Part shown: positions 3,728-18,246 of the stretch, one piece after another
Numbering within the stretch: position 1 is the first letter of the stretch
How the letters are laid out: the number at the start of each line of letters is the position of its first letter
Source: Phycisphaerae bacterium
Lineage (GTDB): Bacteria > Planctomycetota > Phycisphaerae > Sedimentisphaerales > Anaerohalosphaeraceae
Length of the DNA stretch: 64,000 nucleotides
Assembly (NCBI GenBank): GCA_018052735.1
Contig: JAGPMT010000005.1
Span: forward strand, 62,001 to 126,000
Direction: 5' to 3'
Notes under the pieces: model-generated
Told to the model about the DNA's origin: nothing
Seen by the model: the letters and a program-made list of their open reading frames with translations, nothing else
Databases searched by the model: none
Position numbers and translations under genes: made by a program

Positions 3728-5203
3728 TCAGTAAAGCTGCTCTGACCCGCCGAAAATAGCCTTGATTGTATCCAGATTGGGGATTATGGGCGGCAGGTTA
3801 TCCGCCGGCGAGAAGGCCTGCGACCAATATACCAGTATGGCCTTGCCCATCAGATAATCACGCGGCACAACACCGGCATCGTATGTACGGCCCCTGTTGC
3901 CGATACCCTCATTAGACCAGAGGCGTCCATCTAAACTATTGCCGGTATTGTCTCCGCAGACAAAATACTGCTCCCTACCCAGCACAAATGGAATTTCATC
4001 TGTTGCCCGCAGAGAATACCCTTCTTTGCCCATATAAAAAATATCGCGGAAGAGTCCTACATGCCTTATTTGAACCGGACCGGCTGCAAAGATCTGCACG
4101 CGGGGCGGGGTTTCAGAACTGGCCGGCTGCGGAGAGAAATCGGGGTCTGCCGAAAGGTCATAGGTGAGCCGCCGGCTGCCCCACTGCAATACCAGAAGCT
4201 GGTCTACACAGGCAAATTCAAACTTCTCATACCGCCCCGGGGCAATCGGTCCTATCAGCATCGGTAAGCGCAAGTCTTTTGTTGTATCATTGACGGTTTT
4301 GGTTAAAACCATAACTCCCCCGAATTCGATGCGTGCGGAGTAGAGAACATTGTATTTTTCAAGGGAAGCCCCAATACAGCCGCCGCTGGCTTCATGTTGG
4401 GCATAAAAGGTAATCATCAGATCACTGACAATGGGTTTGGATTCTTTATCCCATCCGTCGTTGTAGGCACAGCCGGCGCGGAAGCAAGAAGGATCATTGG
4501 GGACAAAGTTTATCGTATGAAGCTGCCCGGATGTATCCTCCAGAGAAAAAAACGCACGCTGAAGCTGCCAAGTCGAATTCGGTTCATTTTGAAAAGGCAG
4601 CGGACTGGGTTTGTTAAGCGGACATATAGGGTCGTCATTGTTCACAAGAGGCGGATTGTCCTGCAGAAAAATGGGCGTCCACAACTCTTTTTGCACGCCG
4701 GCTGGTTTGCGGGCTATTTGACCGTTAATGAAAACATCACCGTTGATCAGCTGTACTGTCTCGTTGGGCAGCGCAATCAGCCGTTTGATGTAATTGTCCT
4801 TGGGATTGATCGGATTTTTGAAAACGACGACATCCCAGCGTTTCGGTTCAAAAAACTGATAAATCGATTTCAAAACGAATATGCGGTCGCCGTTTTTCAT
4901 ATTGTCTGCGGTCTGGGGGGGCTGGCTGCAATTGCAGATTGGGCAGCGCGGAGGCAGAAACCCTGCCGTATCGCTGCCGATATCAAAGGCATATCCGCAC
5001 TGCTGACAGCGCAGATGATAATGAGCTCCGCGGAGGGTATCTGCCATGCTGCCGGTAGGTATCTGAAATGCCTGAACAGCAAAACCCTGAAACAGCAGCG
5101 CCAAGATAAACGCAACCAGCAGCCATTCGAAAAGGGTAACAATGTTTTCAACAGAATGCTGATGCCGATGAGCCAAGCTTTGATAGGGCTGGTTTTGTTC
5201 CAT
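3728..5203 (-). CDS. lepB: Signal peptidase I with zinc-ribbon insert (paralogue 1)
   Basis: Type I leader peptidase (family S26), an inner-membrane Ser/Lys protease that removes signal peptides from exported proteins. A membrane segment (about residues 24-46) precedes the nucleophile Ser52 in 'PTGSM'; the general-base lysine is Lys140 in 'NYIKR'; the conserved box 'CGDNTGNSLDGRLW' lies near the C-terminus. At 491 residues it is far longer than the usual 200-320. One insert sits just after the active serine and carries four cysteines (66, 69, 87, 90) in a zinc-ribbon pattern. A second, about 200 residues, lies between the lysine box and the GDN box. The gene is 46 nt downstream of a paralogue with the same architecture. 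Confidence 0.9.
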   Translation of the reverse strand: MEQNQPYQSLAHRHQHSVENIVTLFEWLLVAFILALLFQGFAVQAFQIPTGSMADTLRGAHYHLRCQQCGYAFDIGSDTAGFLPPRCPICNCSQPPQTADNMKNGDRIFVLKSIYQFFEPKRWDVVVFKNPINPKDNYIKRLIALPNETVQLINGDVFINGQIARKPAGVQKELWTPIFLQDNPPLVNNDDPICPLNKPSPLPFQNEPNSTWQLQRAFFSLEDTSGQLHTINFVPNDPSCFRAGCAYNDGWDKESKPIVSDLMITFYAQHEASGGCIGASLEKYNVLYSARIEFGGVMVLTKTVNDTTKDLRLPMLIGPIAPGRYEKFEFACVDQLLVLQWGSRRLTYDLSADPDFSPQPASSETPPRVQIFAAGPVQIRHVGLFRDIFYMGKEGYSLRATDEIPFVLGREQYFVCGDNTGNSLDGRLWSNEGIGNRGRTYDAGVVPRDYLMGKAILVYWSQAFSPADNLPPIIPNLDTIKAIFGGSEQLY

Positions 5204-5249: not shown

Positions 5250-6824
5250 TTATTCCGTGCCGCCGTAAATAACCTTCATCCCATCCACAAAAGGAATCCA
5301 GCGAATCGGTATCCGGCTGAGAGGTCCTTTCTCAATGCGGTAGCCGCCGGGCCAGTGCACGACAAATGCCTTTCCGACAAGATAGTCTTGCGGCACTATG
5401 CCGGCCGGATACTCAGGTCGGCCCGGATTGGCCAGACCCGGGCGGTCCCACAGTCGGGAATCCAGACTGAATGGACTGTTGTCGCCGCAGGCAAAGTATT
5501 CACCGTCATGCATGACCATCGGGGACTCTTTGGTCCCGCGTTTGATATTGTCTGAAATATAGTGGATGTCTCTGTATAAGGCAATGTGACTCAGACGAAG
5601 GCTGCCGATGCCGAAAATCTGAACAAGGGGCCTGATATGATAATCCGTGCCGGCATCTTCAATGCCGTTTCCGAGGTCATATGCAACCTTCGAACTTCCG
5701 TACTCCAGAATCAGCTGATGATCCAAGGTGGCAAAACGAAATCGGGTAATCCTTTTCAAATCGTCGGGTCGGCATTGTCCGGCTGCTATTATAACAGGTT
5801 CCCCTGCTGGGCTTAATCGGGCAATCTCCATCCGGCCGTCAGAATGAATCCAGCCTTCATAGGCGATGCCGTATTTTCGAATCTGTGCTCCTGCGGCCGA
5901 GTTTTGCCCGATAGAGGCATAATATTCGGCCATCAAATCGCTGCACAAAGGCATCATCGGATAACTGGCCGGATCATCATAGGCATATGTGGCGCGAAAA
6001 TCATTGCCCTGCCTGTCATTGTATTGAATGCGGTGAATTGCCGAATCCGAACTTTTCAGTTCGAACACCGTAGGGCCGTCGGCTGATAAATTCCATTGGG
6101 ATGCTTCTACACACTCGAACGGCTGTCTCCACGTGTGTCCATTAAAACTCTTTTCATCAGGACGTGCCGGAGGAAAGTCGTTATGATAAACCACCATCCA
6201 TAGTTCTTCCTGAACATTAGGCGGTTTTCGCTGAATGAGGCCGTTGATGTAAATGTCGCCATCAATAATCTGAAGGGTCTCCCCCGGCAAGGCAATGCAG
6301 CGTTTGATATAGTTAATGCGGGGTTCAAGGGGATTTTTAAAAACTATAACATCCCATCGTTTCGGCTGGAAAAACTGATAGATGCATTTGATGACGAAAA
6401 TCTGATCACCTTTGAAAACCGTCCGCGCAAAAGCAGGAACCGTTTTGCCGTCTTTATAGATAAAATAGCGGCCGTCGCTGGAACGGATTGGGGCCGGCTC
6501 GGCATAGCCGCAGCTTGGACAGCGGGATGAGCGGGGACCAATGGGAAGTTTTTGGGATGGGGTTACGGTGTCAGACATGCCGTATCGCTGTGCAATAAAG
6601 TCGTGGTCGTAGCGAAATCCGCACTGGCCGCAGCGAATCCGAAAATGCGCACCCCGAAGAGTTTCGGCCATACTGCCGGTTGGAATGCGGTAAACCTGCA
6701 TAACAAAAATGATAAAGACAAGGGTGTTTGCAAAAGCGGTAATCAGCCACTCTGCATTACGATATGCGCTGTCAATTTTGTCTTTCCCAGAGAAAACAAG
6801 ATTATCATTAAATATTGAAGACAT
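5250..6824 (-). CDS. lepB: Signal peptidase I with zinc-ribbon insert (paralogue 2)
   Basis: Second S26 signal peptidase, 524 residues, with the same plan as its downstream neighbour. A membrane segment (about residues 26-45) is followed by nucleophile Ser51 in 'PTGSM', general base Lys174 in 'NYIKR' and the C-terminal box 'CGDNSPFSLDSRLW'. The insert after Ser51 has paired cysteines 65/68 and 102/105, and a further insert of about 200 residues precedes the GDN box. Both catalytic residues are intact in both copies, so both should be active. The divergence suggests an old tandem duplication with possible substrate specialisation. The start is the ATG at 6824, with only a weak ribosome site. 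Confidence 0.9.
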   Translation of the reverse strand: MSSIFNDNLVFSGKDKIDSAYRNAEWLITAFANTLVFIIFVMQVYRIPTGSMAETLRGAHFRIRCGQCGFRYDHDFIAQRYGMSDTVTPSQKLPIGPRSSRCPSCGYAEPAPIRSSDGRYFIYKDGKTVPAFARTVFKGDQIFVIKCIYQFFQPKRWDVIVFKNPLEPRINYIKRCIALPGETLQIIDGDIYINGLIQRKPPNVQEELWMVVYHNDFPPARPDEKSFNGHTWRQPFECVEASQWNLSADGPTVFELKSSDSAIHRIQYNDRQGNDFRATYAYDDPASYPMMPLCSDLMAEYYASIGQNSAAGAQIRKYGIAYEGWIHSDGRMEIARLSPAGEPVIIAAGQCRPDDLKRITRFRFATLDHQLILEYGSSKVAYDLGNGIEDAGTDYHIRPLVQIFGIGSLRLSHIALYRDIHYISDNIKRGTKESPMVMHDGEYFACGDNSPFSLDSRLWDRPGLANPGRPEYPAGIVPQDYLVGKAFVVHWPGGYRIEKGPLSRIPIRWIPFVDGMKVIYGGTE

Positions 6825-8478: not shown

Positions 8479-9219
8479 TCAGAAATGGGGATGAAATAAT
8501 CCTGCTGCAAGATTATAAAGGCCGTGGAGCGCCATGGCTGCAGCAAAAAAAACAAAACCATGTGACAGGTCAGCTGCCCTGCTGTCTTTGAGCTGTATTT
8601 TCCAAACACGGATGAGCCCTAAAGAAGCAATCAGCGAACAAACAAGATGAAGCAAGGTACATACGGTCCAGCGATACAGGCTGTACTGATGCGGATTATT
8701 CAAAGAGCTTATCGGTATATAGAGCCAGATATAAAGAAGGTTTTCGGACGCAGAGAAAATGAATGCAGAAACTGCTGCGGCAATAAGAAACTGTCCTGCT
8801 GAAAAAATGCGATACGGCTTTTTTTCCAAAAGGTATATCATTCCTGATTGCTTAAGCAGTTCTTCAATGATAGGGGCAAAAACTGTCATATACAGGGCAT
8901 GTGTCAGCCCTTGCCCACCCGAAATAACCGCTCCCAAGACGGCAAAAGAGCCGCCGGTCAGTGCGGCAGCCAAAGTGACTGCCCAATTGCCGAGCCGGGT
9001 ACACTGGCTGCGTTTTTGAGCCAGCCACTGCCCTAACTCGGCCTGCTTCAGCTGGCCTGTGAAGACAGGTTCATTTAAAACCGAATCCCGTACCGTCGAG
9101 ATCTCATCTTCTCGGCCGTCTAATGGGGGCACGGCAGATTCACTGGGATCCGAATTGAAGGGACCGGGGTAATTAACCGGCTCGACATTGACATCAAAAT
9201 AATCGGGGGAAGCACTCAT
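8479..9219 (-). CDS. PrsW-like intramembrane protease (PF13367-type)
   Basis: Predicted polytopic membrane protease related to PrsW, which in Bacillus cleaves an anti-sigma factor. With the start at 9219 (246 residues) the conserved residues stand out: Glu119-Glu120-x-x-Lys123 in 'APIIEELLKQ', Glu159 in 'FSASEN', His191, and His232/Asn236 in 'ALHGLYN', all within or next to hydrophobic helices. Residues 1-75 are soluble and acidic. The ATG at 9219 overlaps the stop of the upstream UPF0145 gene by 4 nt (ATGA), which decides the start. Substrate unknown; a CPBP-type protease is the main alternative. Confidence 0.75.
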   Translation of the reverse strand: MSASPDYFDVNVEPVNYPGPFNSDPSESAVPPLDGREDEISTVRDSVLNEPVFTGQLKQAELGQWLAQKRSQCTRLGNWAVTLAAALTGGSFAVLGAVISGGQGLTHALYMTVFAPIIEELLKQSGMIYLLEKKPYRIFSAGQFLIAAAVSAFIFSASENLLYIWLYIPISSLNNPHQYSLYRWTVCTLLHLVCSLIASLGLIRVWKIQLKDSRAADLSHGFVFFAAAMALHGLYNLAAGLFHPHF

Positions 9220-9668
9220 TTCAAGGCGGTTCCGTAAGCGAGCATTTCTACGCCGCCGGGTTTGTTTTTCTGCTGTCCTTGAATAGCAGAAGTTTCGTAG
9301 CGGATATTCCAAACAATACGCGCCCCCTGCTGCTTTGCCTGCTCGAGCATCCTCACTGTCGCCTGTCGGCGTGCCCGCTCCATAAGGGTTACGTAGCTTT
9401 TCATTTCCCCGCCGAATAAGGTTCGAAGCCCTGCCGCAAACACCTTAAAATAGTCCGTTGCGATAACGGCCGCTCCCATCACAAGAAACGGCTGGGTGTT
9501 TTCCAGTTCCGGCGGGATGCTTTTCAGGTTGGTTATCATCATATCTTTATAGCATTCTTCCTGCTGCCGGAGTTGTCTGAAATGGTGCAGTTCCGTGCCC
9601 TTTCCAATCAGCATAAAAACAACAACCAGTATCAATGGAATTGCAATTTGCAGCAGAAGTTCTATCAT
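9216..9668 (-). CDS. Membrane-anchored UPF0145 (YbjQ-family) protein
   Basis: 150 residues with one N-terminal membrane helix (about residues 5-22) followed by a UPF0145/YbjQ-type domain: 'GGEMKSYVTLMERARRQATVRMLEQAKQQGA' and 'VWNIRYETSAI' match the family core. The biochemical function of the family is not established; the fold forms symmetric multimers and was once called heavy-metal-binding. This copy differs from its upstream neighbour in carrying the membrane anchor. It overlaps both neighbours by 4 nt (9665-9668 and 9216-9219), so the three genes are almost certainly one operon. Confidence 0.75.
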   Translation of the reverse strand: MIELLLQIAIPLILVVVFMLIGKGTELHHFRQLRQQEECYKDMMITNLKSIPPELENTQPFLVMGAAVIATDYFKVFAAGLRTLFGGEMKSYVTLMERARRQATVRMLEQAKQQGARIVWNIRYETSAIQGQQKNKPGGVEMLAYGTALK

Positions 9669-10024
9669 TGCCCCTCTCCTTTCTGCTGAACGGCAGCAGA
9701 CGGAGTTATCGGCTGTGCTACAACGGCCGTGCCATAGACATACAATTCGGCCGCACCGGAGGTAATTGAACTGGTAGCAAAACGGACATTGACAACGGCA
9801 TTTGCTCCAAGCTGCTGTGCCTGAGCCAGCATTCGGGCCATGGCTTCCCGACGGGATTCCACCAGCAGTTCGGTATAGCCAGTCAGTTCGCCTCCGACTA
9901 GATTTTTCAGCGAGGCGGCTATATCTCTTCCGATATGCTTGGCCCGTACGGTATTTCCTTGTACAAGACCTTTAATTTGCAGGATTTTACAGCCGGGGAT
10001 AGTTTCGGTGTTCACGACAATCAT
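9665..10024 (-). CDS. UPF0145 (YbjQ-family) protein
   Basis: Soluble 119-residue YbjQ-like protein: 'IPGCKILQIKGLVQGNTVRAKHIGRDI', 'GGELTGYTELLVESRREAMARML' and 'LGANAVVNVRFATSSI' are family hallmarks. The frame could begin at a GTG at 10030, but that codon lies inside the ribosome site; AAGGAG with a 5-nt spacer points to the ATG at 10024. The C-terminal 15 residues are a low-complexity tail. It is first gene of an operon with a membrane-anchored paralogue and a PrsW-like protease. Function unknown. Confidence 0.8.
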   Translation of the reverse strand: MIVVNTETIPGCKILQIKGLVQGNTVRAKHIGRDIAASLKNLVGGELTGYTELLVESRREAMARMLAQAQQLGANAVVNVRFATSSITSGAAELYVYGTAVVAQPITPSAAVQQKGEGQ

Positions 10025-10073
10025 AACCACTCCTTGAAAATGGGATACGGCATCATATTAAAAAACTAACCAT

Positions 10074-10102: not shown

Positions 10103-10224
10103 TAAAAAAACAGCATCCTTATTATGAGCAGAAAGATATTCATGATATGCAGGAAAATGATGATTAACAGAAATTGAACCGGTTATTATCTATCTACTAA
10201 TAACAAATAAAGTTAAAATTCCTA

Positions 10225-10252
10225 TTGCAAATATTTTCTATCTATTTATAAT
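10225..10252 (+). promoter_or_regulatory. Strong predicted promoter with AT-rich upstream tract
   Basis: TTGCAA (10225-10230) and a perfect TATAAT (10247-10252) are 16 nt apart. The sequence just upstream, about 10180-10224, is A/T-tract rich like an UP element. The leader to the ATG at 10363 is about 105 nt. Confidence 0.65.
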
Positions 10253-10362
10253 GCCTTGTTTGCTCGATATTTTAGCTTGTTGGATAAAAAATAGTTATTA
10301 GTTCTTCGGAGAATAGAAACGTAAATCCTGAACCATTAAGGAAATCAAGGAGCCGCAAGGAT

Positions 10363-11652
10363 ATGGTATCTTTAACCAACGCACCAGTCAATCTGTTTGG
10401 GGCGGAACTGCCGAGTTTTGACCAGATAAAAAAACTCGGGCAATTTGTCAATGCCAGCGAAGCAATCCGGCTGAAATTCAGGCAGGAAGCGGACAAACAA
10501 AGTGATGTTTTGATACAAGGAATTGCCCTGCTGCTGTGCGGACAAGCAGGCGAAGCTATTGAGAAATTAAACAAAGGCAAAGAGTGTCCGCAGAAACATC
10601 TTGCATTGGGATATGCCTACCGCAAGGTAAAACTGTATGATAAGGCGATTGAACAATTTGACAAAGCCGCCAAACAGACTGAAGGAATGACGATAGCCAT
10701 GGAAAAAGCAGAAACCTGGCGTCTGGCCGGCCAGCTGGACAAATGCGAAGCAGAATTGAAAAACTGTGCCAACTTTGAAAATGTCAGCGCTGAATATCAT
10801 TATCAGCTCGGACGGCTGCTGGATGCCCGCGGGGACTACGAAGGAGCTATCGGCCAGTACGAGCGTGCAGTTGAACTGGACAACCGTCATATCAATGCCC
10901 TTTTCCATCTTGCATATGCGTTTGACCTTCGGGGTGATGACGAAGCGGCGGTGAATTATTACAAGGCCTTGATACAGATTGAGCCGGCTCATGTGAACGG
11001 ACTGCTGAATCTGGCGGTGCTGTATGAAGATATGGGTGAATACGAGAAAGCCATGCGGTGCGTTGATACTGTTTTACGTTCGCATCCAAACCACTCCAAA
11101 GCACAGCTGTTCCGCAAGGATATTGCCAGCTCCAGTGTCATGATTTATGACGAAGAAAAGGAAAAAAGACGGGATCGGCAGAACAAAATACTGGAAATAC
11201 CGATTTCCGATTTTGAACTTTCGGTTCGCAGCCGCAATTGCCTGAAGAAAATGAATATTGTAACACTGGGTGATTTGCTGCGAACTACCGAGCAGGAACT
11301 GCTGTCGTACAAGAATTTCGGTGAAACCAGTCTGATGGAGATTAAGAAGATTCTGGAATACAAGGGGCTTCGTCTGGGAATGTCACTGGAAGAGGAAGGT
11401 CCGGCCAAACCTGTTCCTGCTGAATTCACTGGTCAGGCCAGTCCGGAGATACTGAACAAGTCAACAGATGAACTGGAACTGTCGGTTCGTTCCCGTCGTG
11501 CCCTCGAGCGGCTGGGTGTCAAAACGGTATTTGACTTGATTAACAAAACAGAGGCGGAACTGCTTGGCTGCAAGAACTTCGGCGTGACCAGTCTGAATGA
11601 GATAAAAGACCGTCTGGCCGGATTGGGATTAAGCCTTCGCAAGCTTGAGTAA
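10363..11652 (+). CDS. TPR protein with two C-terminal RNA polymerase alpha-CTD-like domains
   Basis: 429 residues. Residues about 45-255 form tetratricopeptide-like helices, for example 'GDYEGAIGQYERAVELD' and 'GEYEKAMRCVDTVL'. Residues 282-345 and 368-429 are two copies of the RNA polymerase alpha C-terminal domain. Copy 1 keeps the residues that contact UP-element DNA in E. coli alpha (Arg289, Asn292, Gly320, Ser323, equivalent to R265, N268, G296, S299). Copy 2 keeps Arg376, Gly407 and Ser410 but has Arg379 for the asparagine. No alpha N-terminal domain is present, so it cannot be the polymerase subunit itself. I infer a DNA-binding or polymerase-associated scaffold. It starts the run towards spoIID, tgt, yajC and secDF. 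Confidence 0.85.
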   Translation: MVSLTNAPVNLFGAELPSFDQIKKLGQFVNASEAIRLKFRQEADKQSDVLIQGIALLLCGQAGEAIEKLNKGKECPQKHLALGYAYRKVKLYDKAIEQFDKAAKQTEGMTIAMEKAETWRLAGQLDKCEAELKNCANFENVSAEYHYQLGRLLDARGDYEGAIGQYERAVELDNRHINALFHLAYAFDLRGDDEAAVNYYKALIQIEPAHVNGLLNLAVLYEDMGEYEKAMRCVDTVLRSHPNHSKAQLFRKDIASSSVMIYDEEKEKRRDRQNKILEIPISDFELSVRSRNCLKKMNIVTLGDLLRTTEQELLSYKNFGETSLMEIKKILEYKGLRLGMSLEEEGPAKPVPAEFTGQASPEILNKSTDELELSVRSRRALERLGVKTVFDLINKTEAELLGCKNFGVTSLNEIKDRLAGLGLSLRKLE

Positions 11653-11669: not shown

Positions 11670-12938
11670 ATGAATTGTGTTATGAAAGGAATACGCAGGC
11701 TCACGGCGTATCGAAGTGCTGCGCTGTGGGCCTGTATGGTATGTATGCTGCTGCCGGCCGGATGCCGGCAGCGCAGCCCGGAACCTACTGTCGGGACAGA
11801 GCGTCCGATACAGGAATGGATGCGGGTTTTGCTCTTTGGCAATCTAAGAGAGTGTTCCGTCGCATCGCTAAGCGGTTTTCGCATTGAAGATATTGACGGC
11901 GGAAGCAGCGCTGAATTTATGACCTCAGCCCCGATACAAATCCGGCATCAGGATGGATTTATCCAAGTCGGCGACCATTTTTTCGGGCGGCAAATTTTAA
12001 TTAAACCCAACGCCCCCTATGTTGTTTTTGAAATCGACGGCAAAGCCTATCGCGGCTATCTTCGCCTCCACATCCGAATGGATGAAGCCGGCATGGAAGT
12101 CATCAATGAAGTACCACTGGAATCATATCTTTTCGGCGTGGTAGGAGCTGAAATGCAGAGCTATTGGGAGCCGGAGGCACTGAAAGCACAGGCGGTTGTT
12201 TCGCGAACCTACGGTTTGTACATCAAAAGCCGCTTTGGAGCCCTGCGTTCATGGGACTTAACACAGTCCGAGGCCAACCAGGTTTATCGCGGGATCGAAG
12301 CCGAAACACCTTCTGTCAGACAGGCGGTGTTGGAAACGGCCGGACAAATTCTCATCGGCAAGTGGGCTGACGGCAGTGAATCGCTGTTTCCGGCTTATTA
12401 CAGCAGTTCCTGTGGTGGACATACCGAGGCGGCACAAAATGTTTTCGGAGGATCTGCAGCAGTTCCTTTATCGGGAGTGCTGTGCCCCTACTGCAAGGAG
12501 ATTGCCCGCCGGAAAGATTTTCACTGGCCCAATGTTACGCTTACAAAACGTCAGATTTTCGAGGGATTGACCCGGCGCTACGAGTCCTTGGAAAAGCTGG
12601 AAGGCATTGAAGATTTTGAGATTTCGCGTGTCGGTTTTCTGGGACGTGTTACCCAAGTCAGGCTGCTCGGCAAAAACGGCAAAACCGATACTCTTCGAGG
12701 CGAGGATTTTCGGCTGAGTCTTGATCCGACAGGGCGTAAAATTAAAAGTGCTGTGTTTACCGTTGATAAAAATGCAGATTCAGTCGTTTTTCGGGATGGT
12801 TTGGGCTTCGGACATGGAGTTGGTTTATGCCAGTGCGGGGCGCAGGGAATGGCACGGCAAGGGTATACTTATCAGGAAATTTTGGATTTTTATTTCCCGG
12901 GTTCCAAACAGGTTGCAATAGAGACATCAAAAGAGTAA
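11670..12938 (+). CDS. SpoIID/LytB-domain protein, probable lipoprotein
   Basis: Family of peptidoglycan lytic transglycosylases and amidase enhancers, acting outside the cytoplasmic membrane on denuded glycan strands. An N-terminal hydrophobic segment ends in a lipobox-like 'LLPAGC' with Cys32. The catalytic glutamate is predicted as Glu151 in 'VPLESYLFGVVGAEM'. Later family motifs are 'YYSSSCGGHTEAAQNVFG' and 'GFGHGVGLCQCGAQGMA'. The 422 residues are somewhat long. The ATG at 11670 follows the preceding gene by 17 nt; an ATG at 11682 is possible. The stop TAA overlaps the tgt start by one base. Sporulation is not implied, since the family is widespread in non-sporulating bacteria. Confidence 0.88.
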   Translation: MNCVMKGIRRLTAYRSAALWACMVCMLLPAGCRQRSPEPTVGTERPIQEWMRVLLFGNLRECSVASLSGFRIEDIDGGSSAEFMTSAPIQIRHQDGFIQVGDHFFGRQILIKPNAPYVVFEIDGKAYRGYLRLHIRMDEAGMEVINEVPLESYLFGVVGAEMQSYWEPEALKAQAVVSRTYGLYIKSRFGALRSWDLTQSEANQVYRGIEAETPSVRQAVLETAGQILIGKWADGSESLFPAYYSSSCGGHTEAAQNVFGGSAAVPLSGVLCPYCKEIARRKDFHWPNVTLTKRQIFEGLTRRYESLEKLEGIEDFEISRVGFLGRVTQVRLLGKNGKTDTLRGEDFRLSLDPTGRKIKSAVFTVDKNADSVVFRDGLGFGHGVGLCQCGAQGMARQGYTYQEILDFYFPGSKQVAIETSKE

Positions 12939-14068
12939 TGAACAGCTTCTGTGTTCAAAACAAGGATTTGCATAGTCAGGCCCGATGCGGATGCTTGACA
13001 ACCGCTCATGGGACGGTTCAGACCCCTGCGTTTATGCCTGTGGGAACACGCGGCTGTGTGAAAGGCATTACTCCCGAACAGCTTAAAGCCACCGGCGCTG
13101 AAATTGTGCTGGCCAATACGTATCACCTCCTGATACGGCCGGGACCTGATGTTGTCGAGGCACTGGGAGATCTGCATGGGTTGATGGGCTGGTCCGGCCC
13201 TATTCTGACCGACAGCGGCGGGTATCAGGTTTTTTCGCTGAGTACCTTAAATCGCATCGGGGAGGACGGGGTTGAGTTTGCCAGTCATATCGACGGGGCA
13301 AAAATTTATCTGGATGCCCGCATTGCTACCCAAGCCCAAAACCGGCTGGGAGCAGATATTATTATGTGTTTTGATGAGTGTACCCCTTGGCCCTGCCCTC
13401 CGGAACGGTTAAAGAAAGCGGTTCAGCGGACTATACGCTGGGCCCGGCAATGCAAAGAGGCTCACACTAATTCCCGACAAATGCTGTTTGGTATTATACA
13501 GGGCGGAGTTGACCTGGAATTAAGAAGCTTGTGTGCGGCTGAGTTGGTGCCCATGGATTTCGATGGCTATGCAATAGGCGGATTAAGCGTCGGTGAGGGA
13601 CACGATTTTATGGTACAGACAGTTCGTCATACTGCCGGACTGCTCCCGGAACAAAAACCCCGCTATTTGATGGGAGTCGGATTGCCGATTGATATTGTAG
13701 AGTCTGTTCGGGCAGGTATTGATATGTTTGATTGTGTTTTGCCCACCCGCAACGGACGCAATGCCTATGCCTTTACCGACAATGGGCCGGTTCGCTTGCG
13801 AAACAGCCGTTATGTGACTGATACGGAGCCGCTGGAGCCGGGATGCAGATGCTATACCTGTCAGCATTTCGGCAAGGGGACGTTGCGGCATTTCTTTAAT
13901 GTGGGTGAAATGCTGGGTCCGATTTTAGTATCGATTCATAATTTAACATATTATCAGCGTTTGATGAGCCGAATTCGCTCCGAGATTAATAATGGCTCTT
14001 TTCAAGCTTGGGCTGATGATTTTTGTATAAAACACAAAAACGAAATAGACGAAATAAACGAAAGTTAA
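12938..14068 (+). CDS. tgt: tRNA-guanine transglycosylase
   Basis: Exchanges guanine-34 for the queuosine precursor preQ1 in tRNAs for Asp, Asn, His and Tyr. In 376 residues the active-site aspartates are Asp92 ('LTDSGGYQVFSL') and the nucleophile Asp265 ('FDCVLPTRNGR'). The structural zinc site is Cys303, Cys305, Cys308 and His334. 'FGIIQGG' and 'YAIGGLSVGE' complete the signature. The frame is open to 12827, but the ATG at 12938, overlapping the previous stop (TAATG), is where homology begins. The order tgt-yajC-secDF is common in bacteria. Confidence 0.96.
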   Translation: MNSFCVQNKDLHSQARCGCLTTAHGTVQTPAFMPVGTRGCVKGITPEQLKATGAEIVLANTYHLLIRPGPDVVEALGDLHGLMGWSGPILTDSGGYQVFSLSTLNRIGEDGVEFASHIDGAKIYLDARIATQAQNRLGADIIMCFDECTPWPCPPERLKKAVQRTIRWARQCKEAHTNSRQMLFGIIQGGVDLELRSLCAAELVPMDFDGYAIGGLSVGEGHDFMVQTVRHTAGLLPEQKPRYLMGVGLPIDIVESVRAGIDMFDCVLPTRNGRNAYAFTDNGPVRLRNSRYVTDTEPLEPGCRCYTCQHFGKGTLRHFFNVGEMLGPILVSIHNLTYYQRLMSRIRSEINNGSFQAWADDFCIKHKNEIDEINES

Positions 14069-14091
14069 CATGATTGAACAAGGAGATTAGG

Positions 14092-14520
14092 ATGCACAAT
14101 ATCTGGATATTGGCTTCTTCTGAACCTGAATCTAAAGAAGAGGGTCAGATTGTAACGATGGAAGAGTCGGCATCGAACCAGCAGACAGCTACATCACAAG
14201 ACGGCCGGAATGGAGCAGACCAGCAGAGTCCTCCTATGTCCCAGAAACCGAATACGATGTTTCTTGTGATGATGGCCATTCTGCTGGTTTATATGTTCTT
14301 TGTGATGTTCCGCGGTCCCAAGAAAAAACAGCAGGAACATCAGCGAATGGTCCAGTCTTTGAAGAAAAACGACCGTGTGCGAACAATCGGCGGCATTTTC
14401 GGGACCGTTATGGATGTGCGGGATGATGAGATTGTGCTGAAAATCGACGAGTCCACCAATACCAAAATGCGGGTCAGCCCGGCAGCAATTGCAGCAGTGC
14501 TAAAAGACAAGACAGAATAA
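14092..14520 (+). CDS. yajC: Preprotein translocase subunit YajC
   Basis: Small inner-membrane partner of SecDF in the holotranslocon. The 142 residues have one membrane helix ('FLVMMAILLVYMFFVMF', about residues 60-76) followed by the conserved cytoplasmic part 'KKNDRVRTIGGIFGTV' and 'ESTNTKMRVSPAAI'. The N-terminal stretch of some 55 residues, rich in Ser, Gln and Glu, is longer than usual. The ATG at 14092 is chosen over an in-frame TTG at 14074 because AAGGAG (14080-14085) sits 6 nt before it. It is followed 42 nt later by secDF. Confidence 0.93.
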   Translation: MHNIWILASSEPESKEEGQIVTMEESASNQQTATSQDGRNGADQQSPPMSQKPNTMFLVMMAILLVYMFFVMFRGPKKKQQEHQRMVQSLKKNDRVRTIGGIFGTVMDVRDDEIVLKIDESTNTKMRVSPAAIAAVLKDKTE

Positions 14521-14562: not shown

Positions 14563-17500
14563 ATGGACAAAAATTTGATCTGGAAGAGCGTATTAATTTT
14601 TGTTGTTGTGGCTTTGGCAGCATGGAATCTGTATCCGCCGCAGGAAAAGCTGAAACCGGGTATTGACCTTGCCGGCGGGACCAGCTTGATTTATGAAATC
14701 GATACGACAGATCTGGCACCCGGTGAACAGCGGAATCTGGCACAAAATATGATTCCCATCCTGCTCAAGCGGATTGACCCCACGCATGTAGCCAACGTCG
14801 TTATGCGGCCGCAGGGAGACACGCGTATTGAGATTCAGCTGCCGGCAGCCAGTTTGGATACGCAGAAGAAGCGGGCTGCTTATGAAGCTGCACTGACAGC
14901 TCTCGAGGAAGAGAATATCAATCTGCTGAAGATTCGTCAGGCACTTGCCCTGCCCTCTGAACAGCGTCAGCAGGCATTTGAGCAGTATGCCAAAGGCAAT
15001 GACGTCCGCATGCAGATTCTGACGGATTTGGCGTCTATTTATGATCAGCGAAAGCATACCCAGCAGCAGCGGGATCAACTAATTGGAGAGATGGACAATG
15101 TCAAGACAAAATTCAGTGCTGCCGGACTTGACTATGAGACGCTCCAGTATGACCTAAGGGTATGGAGCAAGGAAGAGGCGGCAAAACAGAAAGAAAGCAT
15201 CGAGACCTATGTAAAGAACAATATTAAAGATGAGACAGCGGCAGAGGGTACTCTGGGACAGCGGCAGAAAGAAGCCGTTTCGCTGATCAATGAATATCTC
15301 GAACTGTATAGCCGATGGGTTCCCGTTGTGGATGCTTTAACCGGGCCGGAAACAGGATTGAATGTACAATGGGACAATGCTGTTAAAAAACTGGCGCAGC
15401 TGAATCTGAGTATTGAGTTGTTTCAGGATGTGCTTGAAATGCCCAAAGATTCACGGGTACGGCGGGAAAAGCTGGAGGAGATGAAAAAGGCCTATCCCGA
15501 AAGAAGCAGCAAGATCGAAGCGGCTGTCGCGGCATTTGATGCCTATCGTGTAGTCGGCGGGCGGCTGGACGATCCGGAAGACCTGAAACGGATGCTCAAG
15601 GGCTCGGGAGTATTGGAATTCCGCATTCTGCCGACAAGCGAAGAAGGCAATTCCGCGGAATTTCAGGCCTATCTTGAGGCACTGACCACCAAAGGCCCCA
15701 AGCAGGCATCTGATAACCGTTATATCTGGTGTGCTATCGAAGATCCTCAAACTTGGCCGGCAGGATTAGGCATCACCGGCACATTTGGAGAGAAAAAATA
15801 TGTTCTTTGCAGCAATCTGCCTAACGAAAAGATGCTGCATGAAGGCGAAAAAAAATGGAAACTTAAGAAGGCATACCCGACCTTTGATGAACAGGGCCGT
15901 CGAGCTATCGGATTTACATTTGACGAAATAGCGGCTAACCGTTTTTATGCTGTTACCAGCAGCAATAACGACAGGCCTTTGGCTATTCTTTTGGATGATC
16001 AGGTCATATCCGCTCCGCGTATTAACAGTGCCATCCGCTCTTCGGGCATTATTACCGGTTCATTTTCGCAGACCGAAGTATCGGATATGGTCAATAAGCT
16101 GAATGCCGGCTCCTTCCCTGCACGGCTCAGCGAAGTCCCCATCTCAGAGAAAAGCATCAGTGCAACAATTGGGACGGATAACCGCGACAGGGGTATTCGG
16201 GCCGGAATGATTGGTCTGGCAGCTGTTGCCGTCTTTATGCTGGGCTATTATTTGCTCAGCGGGGCTATTGCCGATGCTGCTTTGGTGCTGAACATTCTGC
16301 TGGTGCTGGGCGTTATGGCGATGCTGCAGTCGACCTTTACAATGCCCGGCATCGCAGGCCTGCTGCTGACTATCGGTATGAGTGTTGACGCAAATGTGCT
16401 GATTTTCGAACGGATACGGGAAGAGCAGCAGCGGGGTTCTTCGGTGAAGGCGGCTATCGCAAACGGTTATTCCCGGGCATTTCGAACGATTTTCGATGCC
16501 AATGTAACAACGTTCGGCGTTGCTGCCATACTCTATATGGCTGCGTCTGAAGAAATCAAAGGTTTTGCCATCGTACTGATGCTGGGTATCTTAGCCAGTA
16601 TGTTTACCGCCCTGTTTGTAACGCGAGTGATTTTCGACTGGCTGACCAGCCGGCGGATATTGACCCGCCCGCTAATGATGTTTCGAATGTTCCAGAATGC
16701 CAATATTAACTGGATGAGACTGAGTCCGGTATTTTTTGTCATTTCCGGTATTCTGGTTATAAGCGGTCTGCTGGTCTTCTTTTTAAGAAATGACAGCACA
16801 AACAGCAAATATGATATCGAATTTATCGGCGGAACAAGTGTTGAAATTGAATTAAAGGAAGGCACCGGCTTCAATCGGGAAAAGGTAGAGCAGATATTCA
16901 AGGCCTATGCCAATTCCATCGGCAACAGCGCCTTGACTGCCGCCAAAATTTATGAAGTCGGCAAATCCGGCCGCCAGTTTGAAATCAGCACTACCGAGAC
17001 CAATAAAACAACCGCAACCATTGTGCTGAACAGCGCTGGTACGGAAACAGCGGCAGCTCTGGCCGAAAAGATTCGAAAGGCATCCGCCGAAACAGGCAAA
17101 CTGCTGTCGAATCTTAACGTTGTTTCTATCGGCCCGAATACCTTCAAGGTTTCGACCAGCCGCTTAAATGCTGCCTTGGTCCAAGAGGTATTGTCTGCAG
17201 CTGTCGGTGCAGATGGAACTGTCACCAATGTCGAGGTCCAGGAAGTTGTCAGTGATGCGGTTCGCGAAGCGTTCAAAGATTATCTGACAGTTCGCGAAAA
17301 TCTCGGATTGTCGTTTATAGATGAGCAGAAAATAGAAACAAGTCTTGATGATGCCGCTCTATTGTCGGATTACTTGGGCGGGATTAAACTGACCTGCCAG
17401 CTTCAGATGGAAGCCACAGCAGCCGAACTGGAAGCTCGCATCAGCACGCTGCTGTCAAAACCGGACATGCAGGAATTGGTACGGTATCCGCACAAACTGC

Positions 17501-18246
17501 TGAAAACAGATTTGACCGAACCGGCCGCTGATGAACCTCTCAAAAGTTTTGTCTATGTCAGCGTTCATCCCGAAGCCGGCTATCGCGAGCTGGACCAGAG
17601 TGAGTGGCAGAATTTTGTAAACAACGAAAAGACCAAATTGGCCCAAGCCGCTTCGCTGGAAACGTCGCTTTCACGCGTTACGCAAATTGATCCTTCGATC
17701 GGCTCGCAAGCCAAACAGCGCGCGATTGTGGCCATTCTTCTTTCACTGCTGGCGATTGTGGGATATATCTGGGTGCGCTTCGGCACAGCCCGGTACGGCA
17801 TGGCGGCGATTATTGCCCTTGTTCATGATGTTATTATTACTCTTGGGCTGGTGACGGCATGCACCTATATCGCACCCACTGCTTTCGGCAAAGCCCTTCT
17901 GATTGGCGACTTCAAAATCAATCTGGAGATGATTGCGGCATTTCTGACGATTATAGGATATTCATTAAACGATACGATTGTCGTTTTCGACCGCATACGC
18001 GAGAACCGCGGAAAACTGAATATTCTGACGCCCAGCCTGATTTCCTCGAGCATTAACCAGACGTTGTCGCGAACAATTTTGACCTCCTTTACGACATTTC
18101 TGGTGGTGCTGGTTATGTATATCTGGGGCGGTGAGGGGCTTCGCGGCTTTACCTTCGCAATGATGGCTGGACTGATTGTCGGTACCTATTCTTCAATTGC
18201 CATTGCATCTCCGATTTTGCTAATGGGAAAATCTCAAGAGCAGTAG
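14563..18246 (+). CDS. secDF: SecD-SecF fusion, protein-export membrane protein
   Basis: Proton-driven accessory of the Sec translocon that pulls proteins across the membrane. One frame of 1227 residues contains a SecD half (about 1-700) and a SecF half (about 705-1227). SecD landmarks: 'GIDLAGGTSLIYEID' near 33, 'AYPTFDEQGRRAIGFTF', and Asp609 in the transmembrane 'SVDANVLIFERIREE'. SecF landmarks: 'IEFIGGTSVEIEL' near 750 and Asp1137 in 'LNDTIVVFDRIREN'. The two aspartates are the proton-pathway residues of the family. It is much longer than Bacillus SecDF (about 740). The extra length is charged helical sequence at about 100-345 of the SecD periplasmic domain, and an enlarged SecF periplasmic domain. 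It ends at a good terminator. Confidence 0.95.
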   Translation: MDKNLIWKSVLIFVVVALAAWNLYPPQEKLKPGIDLAGGTSLIYEIDTTDLAPGEQRNLAQNMIPILLKRIDPTHVANVVMRPQGDTRIEIQLPAASLDTQKKRAAYEAALTALEEENINLLKIRQALALPSEQRQQAFEQYAKGNDVRMQILTDLASIYDQRKHTQQQRDQLIGEMDNVKTKFSAAGLDYETLQYDLRVWSKEEAAKQKESIETYVKNNIKDETAAEGTLGQRQKEAVSLINEYLELYSRWVPVVDALTGPETGLNVQWDNAVKKLAQLNLSIELFQDVLEMPKDSRVRREKLEEMKKAYPERSSKIEAAVAAFDAYRVVGGRLDDPEDLKRMLKGSGVLEFRILPTSEEGNSAEFQAYLEALTTKGPKQASDNRYIWCAIEDPQTWPAGLGITGTFGEKKYVLCSNLPNEKMLHEGEKKWKLKKAYPTFDEQGRRAIGFTFDEIAANRFYAVTSSNNDRPLAILLDDQVISAPRINSAIRSSGIITGSFSQTEVSDMVNKLNAGSFPARLSEVPISEKSISATIGTDNRDRGIRAGMIGLAAVAVFMLGYYLLSGAIADAALVLNILLVLGVMAMLQSTFTMPGIAGLLLTIGMSVDANVLIFERIREEQQRGSSVKAAIANGYSRAFRTIFDANVTTFGVAAILYMAASEEIKGFAIVLMLGILASMFTALFVTRVIFDWLTSRRILTRPLMMFRMFQNANINWMRLSPVFFVISGILVISGLLVFFLRNDSTNSKYDIEFIGGTSVEIELKEGTGFNREKVEQIFKAYANSIGNSALTAAKIYEVGKSGRQFEISTTETNKTTATIVLNSAGTETAAALAEKIRKASAETGKLLSNLNVVSIGPNTFKVSTSRLNAALVQEVLSAAVGADGTVTNVEVQEVVSDAVREAFKDYLTVRENLGLSFIDEQKIETSLDDAALLSDYLGGIKLTCQLQMEATAAELEARISTLLSKPDMQELVRYPHKLLKTDLTEPAADEPLKSFVYVSVHPEAGYRELDQSEWQNFVNNEKTKLAQAASLETSLSRVTQIDPSIGSQAKQRAIVAILLSLLAIVGYIWVRFGTARYGMAAIIALVHDVIITLGLVTACTYIAPTAFGKALLIGDFKINLEMIAAFLTIIGYSLNDTIVVFDRIRENRGKLNILTPSLISSSINQTLSRTILTSFTTFLVVLVMYIWGGEGLRGFTFAMMAGLIVGTYSSIAIASPILLMGKSQEQ

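Follow-up and report, generated by a model that had tools for sequence, protein, structure and literature searches.

A single-copy core gene of Planctomycetota encodes a TPR protein with two RNA polymerase alpha-CTDs, a candidate transcription factor of the phylum

The window, i.e. the whole 64,000-nucleotide stretch of a Phycisphaerae contig that was analysed, encodes a 429-aa protein in which a TPR superhelix is followed by two RNA polymerase alpha-CTDs, here numbered CTD1 and CTD2 (TPR-2x alpha-CTD protein). The gene and its surroundings comprise the following features:

10180-10300, + strand: A/T-rich upstream stretch, 77% A+T (0.03% of 121-bp windows are equally A/T-rich)
10347-10352, + strand: ribosome-binding site AAGGAG, 10 nt before the ATG, read from the sequence
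10363-11652, + strand: TPR-2x alpha-CTD protein, whole CDS including the stop codon (429 aa; found with a full-length profile in 294/297 planctomycete genomes)
10417-11136, + strand: TPR superhelix, residues 19-258 (Pfam TPR models, AlphaFold2 model and fold match)
11152-11193, + strand: charged linker helix, residues 264-277, running directly into CTD1 (DSSP of the model)
11170-11358, + strand: CTD1, Pfam match at residues 270-332 (82.5 bits; fold match 9zum)
11227-11229, + strand: codon of R289, equivalent to E. coli R265 (invariant, 130/130 homologues)
11443-11619, + strand: CTD2 (70.6 bits; fold match 1lb2)
11488-11490, + strand: codon of R376, equivalent to E. coli R265 (invariant, 129/129 homologues)
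11670-12938, + strand: SpoIID-domain protein gene, conserved neighbour 17 bp downstream (directly downstream in 78/120 loci)
12827-14068, + strand: tgt, queuine tRNA-ribosyltransferase, conserved neighbour (listed ORF; the true start is probably later)
14074-14520, + strand: yajC, conserved neighbour (gene-order comparison)
14563-18246, + strand: fused secDF, conserved neighbour (gene-order comparison)

The initial annotation had described two alpha-CTDs on a TPR protein devoid of the alpha NTD, an architecture that is borne out by Pfam, an AlphaFold2 model and fold matches. RNA_pol_A_CTD (PF03118) is found twice in the protein (whole-protein E-value 2.3e-42, 143 bits) and, given a gathering cut-off of 23.8 bits, the 82.5 bits of CTD1 and 70.6 bits of CTD2 are far beyond chance. 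Several Pfam TPR models match as well, with repeats at residues 143-176, 177-210, 211-244 and 245-278. The alpha NTD models (PF01000, PF01193) gave no match within the protein, and NCBIfam RpoA models score far below their cut-off. As no hydrophobic signal stretch was found when the N terminus was read, the protein is probably cytosolic.

The AlphaFold2 model (mean pLDDT 88) displays the TPR superhelix and two CTD folds, with a disordered loop between the latter (residues 341-353, pLDDT below 50). A fold search with the whole model returned TPR proteins alone and no alpha-CTD structure; its TPR part aligns with 1w3b (Z 21.5 over 217 residues, rmsd 3.9 Å). The CTD pair was therefore folded separately, upon which CTD1 matched 9zum, an alpha-CTD-DNA structure from Caulobacter (Z 13.5, 1.6 Å, 74 residues), and CTD2 matched E. 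coli 1lb2 (Z 13.1, 0.9 Å, 66 residues). Both domains match solved alpha-CTD structures, DNA-bound ones (9zum, 1lb2, 3n97) among them, at Z about 13.

The TPR part carries a conserved groove. In the homologue alignment, F181, N216, E222, D223 and D253 are invariant or nearly so, the last TPRs hold invariant groove residues, and D263, E264 and L277 of the linker-helix region are conserved. A carboxylate clamp of the Hop/CHIP type (K5-N9-N6-K2-R6) was considered and rejected, as only two of its five positions fit: N6 (N216) and a basic position 2 (residue 246) are present and the remaining three are F, Y and F.

A total of 297 planctomycete genomes with a completeness of at least 95% was surveyed with a full-length profile of the protein (match threshold E ≤ 1e-35). 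Matches were obtained in 294 genomes and 188/190 genera, mostly with E-values from 1e-95 to 1e-204. The gene was single-copy in every matched genome except two, and three of the 297 genomes gave no full-length match. PF03118 itself matches at least three times in each of these genomes, about eleven excepted, and among the best 80 of 238 relatives the names are nearly all planctomycetes or Phycisphaerae. This distribution is that of a core gene of Planctomycetota, and one ortholog in 294/297 genomes together with a conserved gene order argues for vertical descent and a core role. A mobile or phage origin was ruled out: no relative was confirmed when viral contigs were scanned with the profile, and what matched in phages and plasmids were rpoA genes, unrelated TPR proteins or other proteins with a single alpha-CTD. 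Some plasmid-labelled records that carry rpoA, such as those of Clostridioides difficile (L299, with rplQ beside it) and Streptomyces (L295), may be mislabelled chromosome pieces. Our search of the open-licence literature retrieved no paper describing the protein. A transposon essentiality map exists for the cultivable Planctopirus limnophila (PMC10632474), and the main text of that study does not mention the protein. Its near-universal presence and the conservation of CTD1 (see below) point to a candidate undescribed core transcription factor of the phylum.

Gene order was compared across 120 distinct loci. The SpoIID-domain gene lies directly 3' in 78 of them, followed in many by tgt, yajC and secDF. 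In one group (including L147, L148, L150, L152, L234 and L235) the order is TPR-2x alpha-CTD gene, ruvA, ruvB, queH-like, spoIID and tgt, from which it follows that the gene heads an ancestral ruvAB-spoIID-tgt-yajC-secDF cluster in distant classes. The conserved order supports orthology; no function is read from the neighbours. Promoters are often A/T-rich, and a promoter scan of the A/T-rich upstream stretch found a promoter-like TTGCAA-16-TATAAT at 10225-10252 (+). The stretch weakly suggests a UP-like control region, through which autoregulation is possible. Elsewhere in the neighbourhood, the SecD-SecF fusion (14563-18246, +) is a single protein of 1227 aa that contains a long, charged insert, and two adjacent YbjQ-family genes (9216-10030, -) lie upstream of and divergent from the TPR-2x alpha-CTD gene. 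Tandem signal peptidase I genes (Peptidase_S26; 3728-5203 and 5250-6824, -) have a long insert at their centre and, shortly past the GSM serine motif, one of CxxC type.

The relation of the protein to the polymerase's own alpha subunit was complicated by the source genome, in which a domain search detected no rpoA NTD (PF01000) and in which CTD1 and CTD2 are the only PF03118 matches. Normally, rplQ adjoins rpoA; it was not detected either, in an assembly that is 96% complete. Among relatives, RpoA was seen in 51/59 genomes, almost always as a single complete frame of about 335-370 aa that comprises NTD and CTD, and an ordinary RpoA usually accompanies the TPR-2x alpha-CTD protein in planctomycete genomes. 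Since rplQ is missing too and almost every relative has a complete RpoA, the absence of rpoA is an assembly gap, and a split alpha subunit, with its CTD moved to another protein, is ruled out on the same grounds.

To specifically focus on the contact residues, positions were counted in 130 CTD1, 129 CTD2 and 63 planctomycete RpoA CTD sequences and are given below in E. coli numbering. In E. coli, R265 and N294 insert into the minor groove and K291 and K298 form salt bridges to the DNA backbone (PMC7822876), substitutions of N268 abolish UP-element function (PMC11434276), and D259/E261 contact R603 of sigma (PMC5511352). As the initial annotation had noted, both copies in the window retain the minor-groove Arg (R289 and R376 align with R265), and CTD1 also keeps Asn, Gly and Ser (N292, G320 and S323, equivalent to N268, G296 and S299). 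CTD2 keeps G407 and S410 (G296 and S299) and has Arg in place of the Asn. That annotation would have been refuted had most homologues lost Arg289 and Arg376; instead, R265 is invariant throughout CTD1 (130/130), CTD2 (129/129) and the RpoA CTDs.

The further counts go beyond that annotation, as do the single-copy core status and the higher conservation of CTD1 relative to the RpoA CTD. CTD1 retains R265, N268, N294, G296, S299, E302 and E261 without exception (130/130), and position 259 is D in 122/130 and Glu in seven more (D/E in 129/130). This acidic pair, at positions that are variable in planctomycete RpoA, would face a partner that is preserved, as the R603 equivalent is kept in all 24 planctomycete primary sigmas read (six loci had no match to the search motif). 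N294 is present in 130/130 CTD1 and 124/129 CTD2, with S instead in 38/63 RpoA; N268 is invariant in CTD1 and RpoA and replaced by K/R in 112/129 CTD2. Position 267 is R/K in 130/130 CTD1 and 126/129 CTD2, and most RpoA have S, T, N or G there. Neither CTD has K291 or K298: position 291 is S/A/G in CTD1 and G/E/A in CTD2 (RpoA keeps K291 in 37/63), and position 298 is T in both, nearly throughout. Position 297 is E/D everywhere in CTD1 and K or E by lineage in RpoA. Two apparent peculiarities were discarded, namely acidic 297 as a CTD1-specific trait, because many RpoAs of other classes share it, and K298T as a sign of lost function, because the phylum's own RpoA has T298 in 63/63.

Conservation is higher in CTD1 than in the RpoA CTD, the RpoA NTD and CTD2 of the same genomes. 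Mean pairwise identities among 13 genomes of the same order are 0.813 (CTD1), 0.721 (RpoA CTD), 0.695 (RpoA NTD), 0.653 (CTD2) and 0.431 (TPR), and the ranking is the same across 25 phylum-wide genomes (0.716, 0.625, 0.616, 0.528 and 0.365, respectively). CTD1 identity exceeds that of the RpoA CTD in 260/300 pairs of these 25 genomes; the pairs are not independent, and the direction is consistent. In a tree of 64 columns, a length at which the deep branching order is unsupported, CTD1 forms one group (96/93 support) and CTD2 another (92/86 support), which supports a single origin for each. T298 is common to planctomycete RpoA, CTD1 and CTD2, and K298 is found in all eight RpoA CTDs from outside species, a pattern that fits duplication from the phylum's own RpoA, presumably before its classes split. 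One family, probably the anammox group (Brocadiales), has lost the NFG..SL turn of CTD2 or lacks CTD2 altogether (L150, 392 aa).

Because the minor-groove and sigma-pair residues are fixed, the backbone lysines are gone and the TPR groove is fixed, we infer a factor acting at A/T-rich DNA. We tentatively propose, at somewhat less than an even chance, that the protein is a core transcription factor found phylum-wide in Planctomycetota, which would supply an alpha-CTD pair in trans, with contacts to the minor groove and sigma region 4 and a partner held by the TPRs. The invariant Arg of each CTD, with the Asn at position 294, would enter the minor groove of A/T-rich DNA, and CTD1, beside the -35 element, would touch sigma region 4 with its acidic pair (D259/E261 facing R603 in E. 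coli numbering). The TPR groove would bind a conserved partner, for which RNA polymerase itself and a regulator are the likeliest candidates, and so bring it to A/T-rich DNA next to sigma region 4, presumably in an activating role; CTD1 would do most of the reading, assisted by CTD2. With the backbone lysines lost, firm binding probably depends on the two CTDs acting together, on the partner, or on both. Competition with, or replacement of, the polymerase's own CTDs, as suggested in the initial annotation, is compatible with the residues kept. Several observations count against a factor of this kind: CTD1 has no basic residue at 291, 297 or 298 (E. coli K291/K298 bind the backbone), K/R replaces N268 in most CTD2, the degenerate or lost CTD2 of one family implies that the pair is not always needed, and the uniform conservation of the CTD1 surface means that protein binding would fit equally.

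A stronger form, which we regard as doubtful, makes the protein an obligatory general factor, in which polymerase and sigma would work with a TPR-held, detached alpha-CTD pair and CTD1 would take the sigma-proximal UP-element position normally held by a polymerase CTD. The tentative proposal itself, a trans-acting alpha-CTD pair beside sigma region 4, is favoured by a different protein at a relative's locus (L292), in which three alpha-CTDs are fused to sigma-70 region 4, an independent joining of both modules; evolution has thus brought them together before.

The CTDs could alternatively bind protein rather than DNA, i.e. sigma, an elongation factor or another polymerase-bound factor, and couple the polymerase to the TPR partner. 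The lost backbone lysines, the acidic 297, the near-total conservation of the CTD1 surface, D259/E261 included, and the conserved TPR groove all agree with such an adaptor, which we nonetheless consider unlikely, since CTD1 always, and CTD2 nearly always, retains R265 and N294 for the minor groove, and both domains have gained a fixed basic residue at position 267 (R/K). Quite unlikely is a decoy that mimics the polymerase CTD and occupies UP elements or titrates activators to tune polymerase output: the DNA-contact residues are the same as in RpoA and a protein without NTD is unable to join core polymerase as alpha subunit, but CTD1 is a distinct clade with fixed residues of its own (R/K267, E/D297), is under tighter constraint than the RpoA CTD, which a mimic should track, and its near-universal presence suggests a housekeeping part. 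A helix-hairpin-helix DNA-binding role away from promoters, e.g. in chromosome structure or repair, is improbable, as the helix-hairpin-helix fold included in the alpha-CTD and the adjoining ruvAB of one family are outweighed by the membership of ruvAB in an old housekeeping cluster that does not adjoin the gene in most loci and by a fixed sigma-contact pair in CTD1 for which such a role has no use.

Little is understood of planctomycete promoters and gene regulation, and a single-copy gene across nearly the whole phylum, with a CTD tighter than the polymerase's own, is a strong candidate for a missing transcription part. The two invariant arginines offer direct mutants to test the proposed trans-acting CTD pair; if it holds, alpha-CTDs act in nature as separable promoter modules.

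Compared with known systems, CTD1 and CTD2 resemble the RpoA CTD (PF03118) in fold and in R265, G296, E302 and N294 as in E. coli, and planctomycete RpoA in T298; unlike in RpoA, they are detached from the NTD, tandem and TPR-fused, with R/K267 in both. Small stand-alone alpha-CTD proteins (NF005841/PRK07758 and a planctomycete solo family) likewise have no NTD, but they carry a single CTD and no TPR; NF005841 matches the TPR-2x alpha-CTD protein with 44.6 bits versus a cut-off of 115. BREX PglW kinase shares an alpha-CTD-like stretch (partial match to NF033442), whereas the architecture is not common to both, NF033442 being a 1391-position kinase model whose cut-off of 990 bits is not approached. 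AfsR (SARP-NOD-TPR) similarly couples its TPR scaffold to a module engaging both promoter DNA and polymerase, and is described as activating via its SARP domain (PMC10936776); unlike AfsR, the TPR-2x alpha-CTD protein itself bears alpha-CTDs.

Further alpha-CTD proteins were observed along the way. The solo family (L284-L290, e.g. L288:3047-3457, -) is a third, small alpha-CTD protein of about 75-100 aa, with sequence MTRIPL...KLEMSTAEIGLSVRTTNCLEERGIFTV.DLLNCT..DLLSISNFGEKTLEEVY; it occurs in 7/10 genomes searched, each of a different genus, is highly conserved and branches with RpoA CTDs. At L292:2593-5058 (+), an open frame of 822 aa combines sigma-70 region 4 and a HARE-HTH-like stretch with three diverged alpha-CTDs. 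Two genomes (G084, C4:1479137-1479304; G231, C44:6407-6577) have open frames with a single, weaker alpha-CTD match; at 1417-1423 aa, these are the size of BREX PglW.
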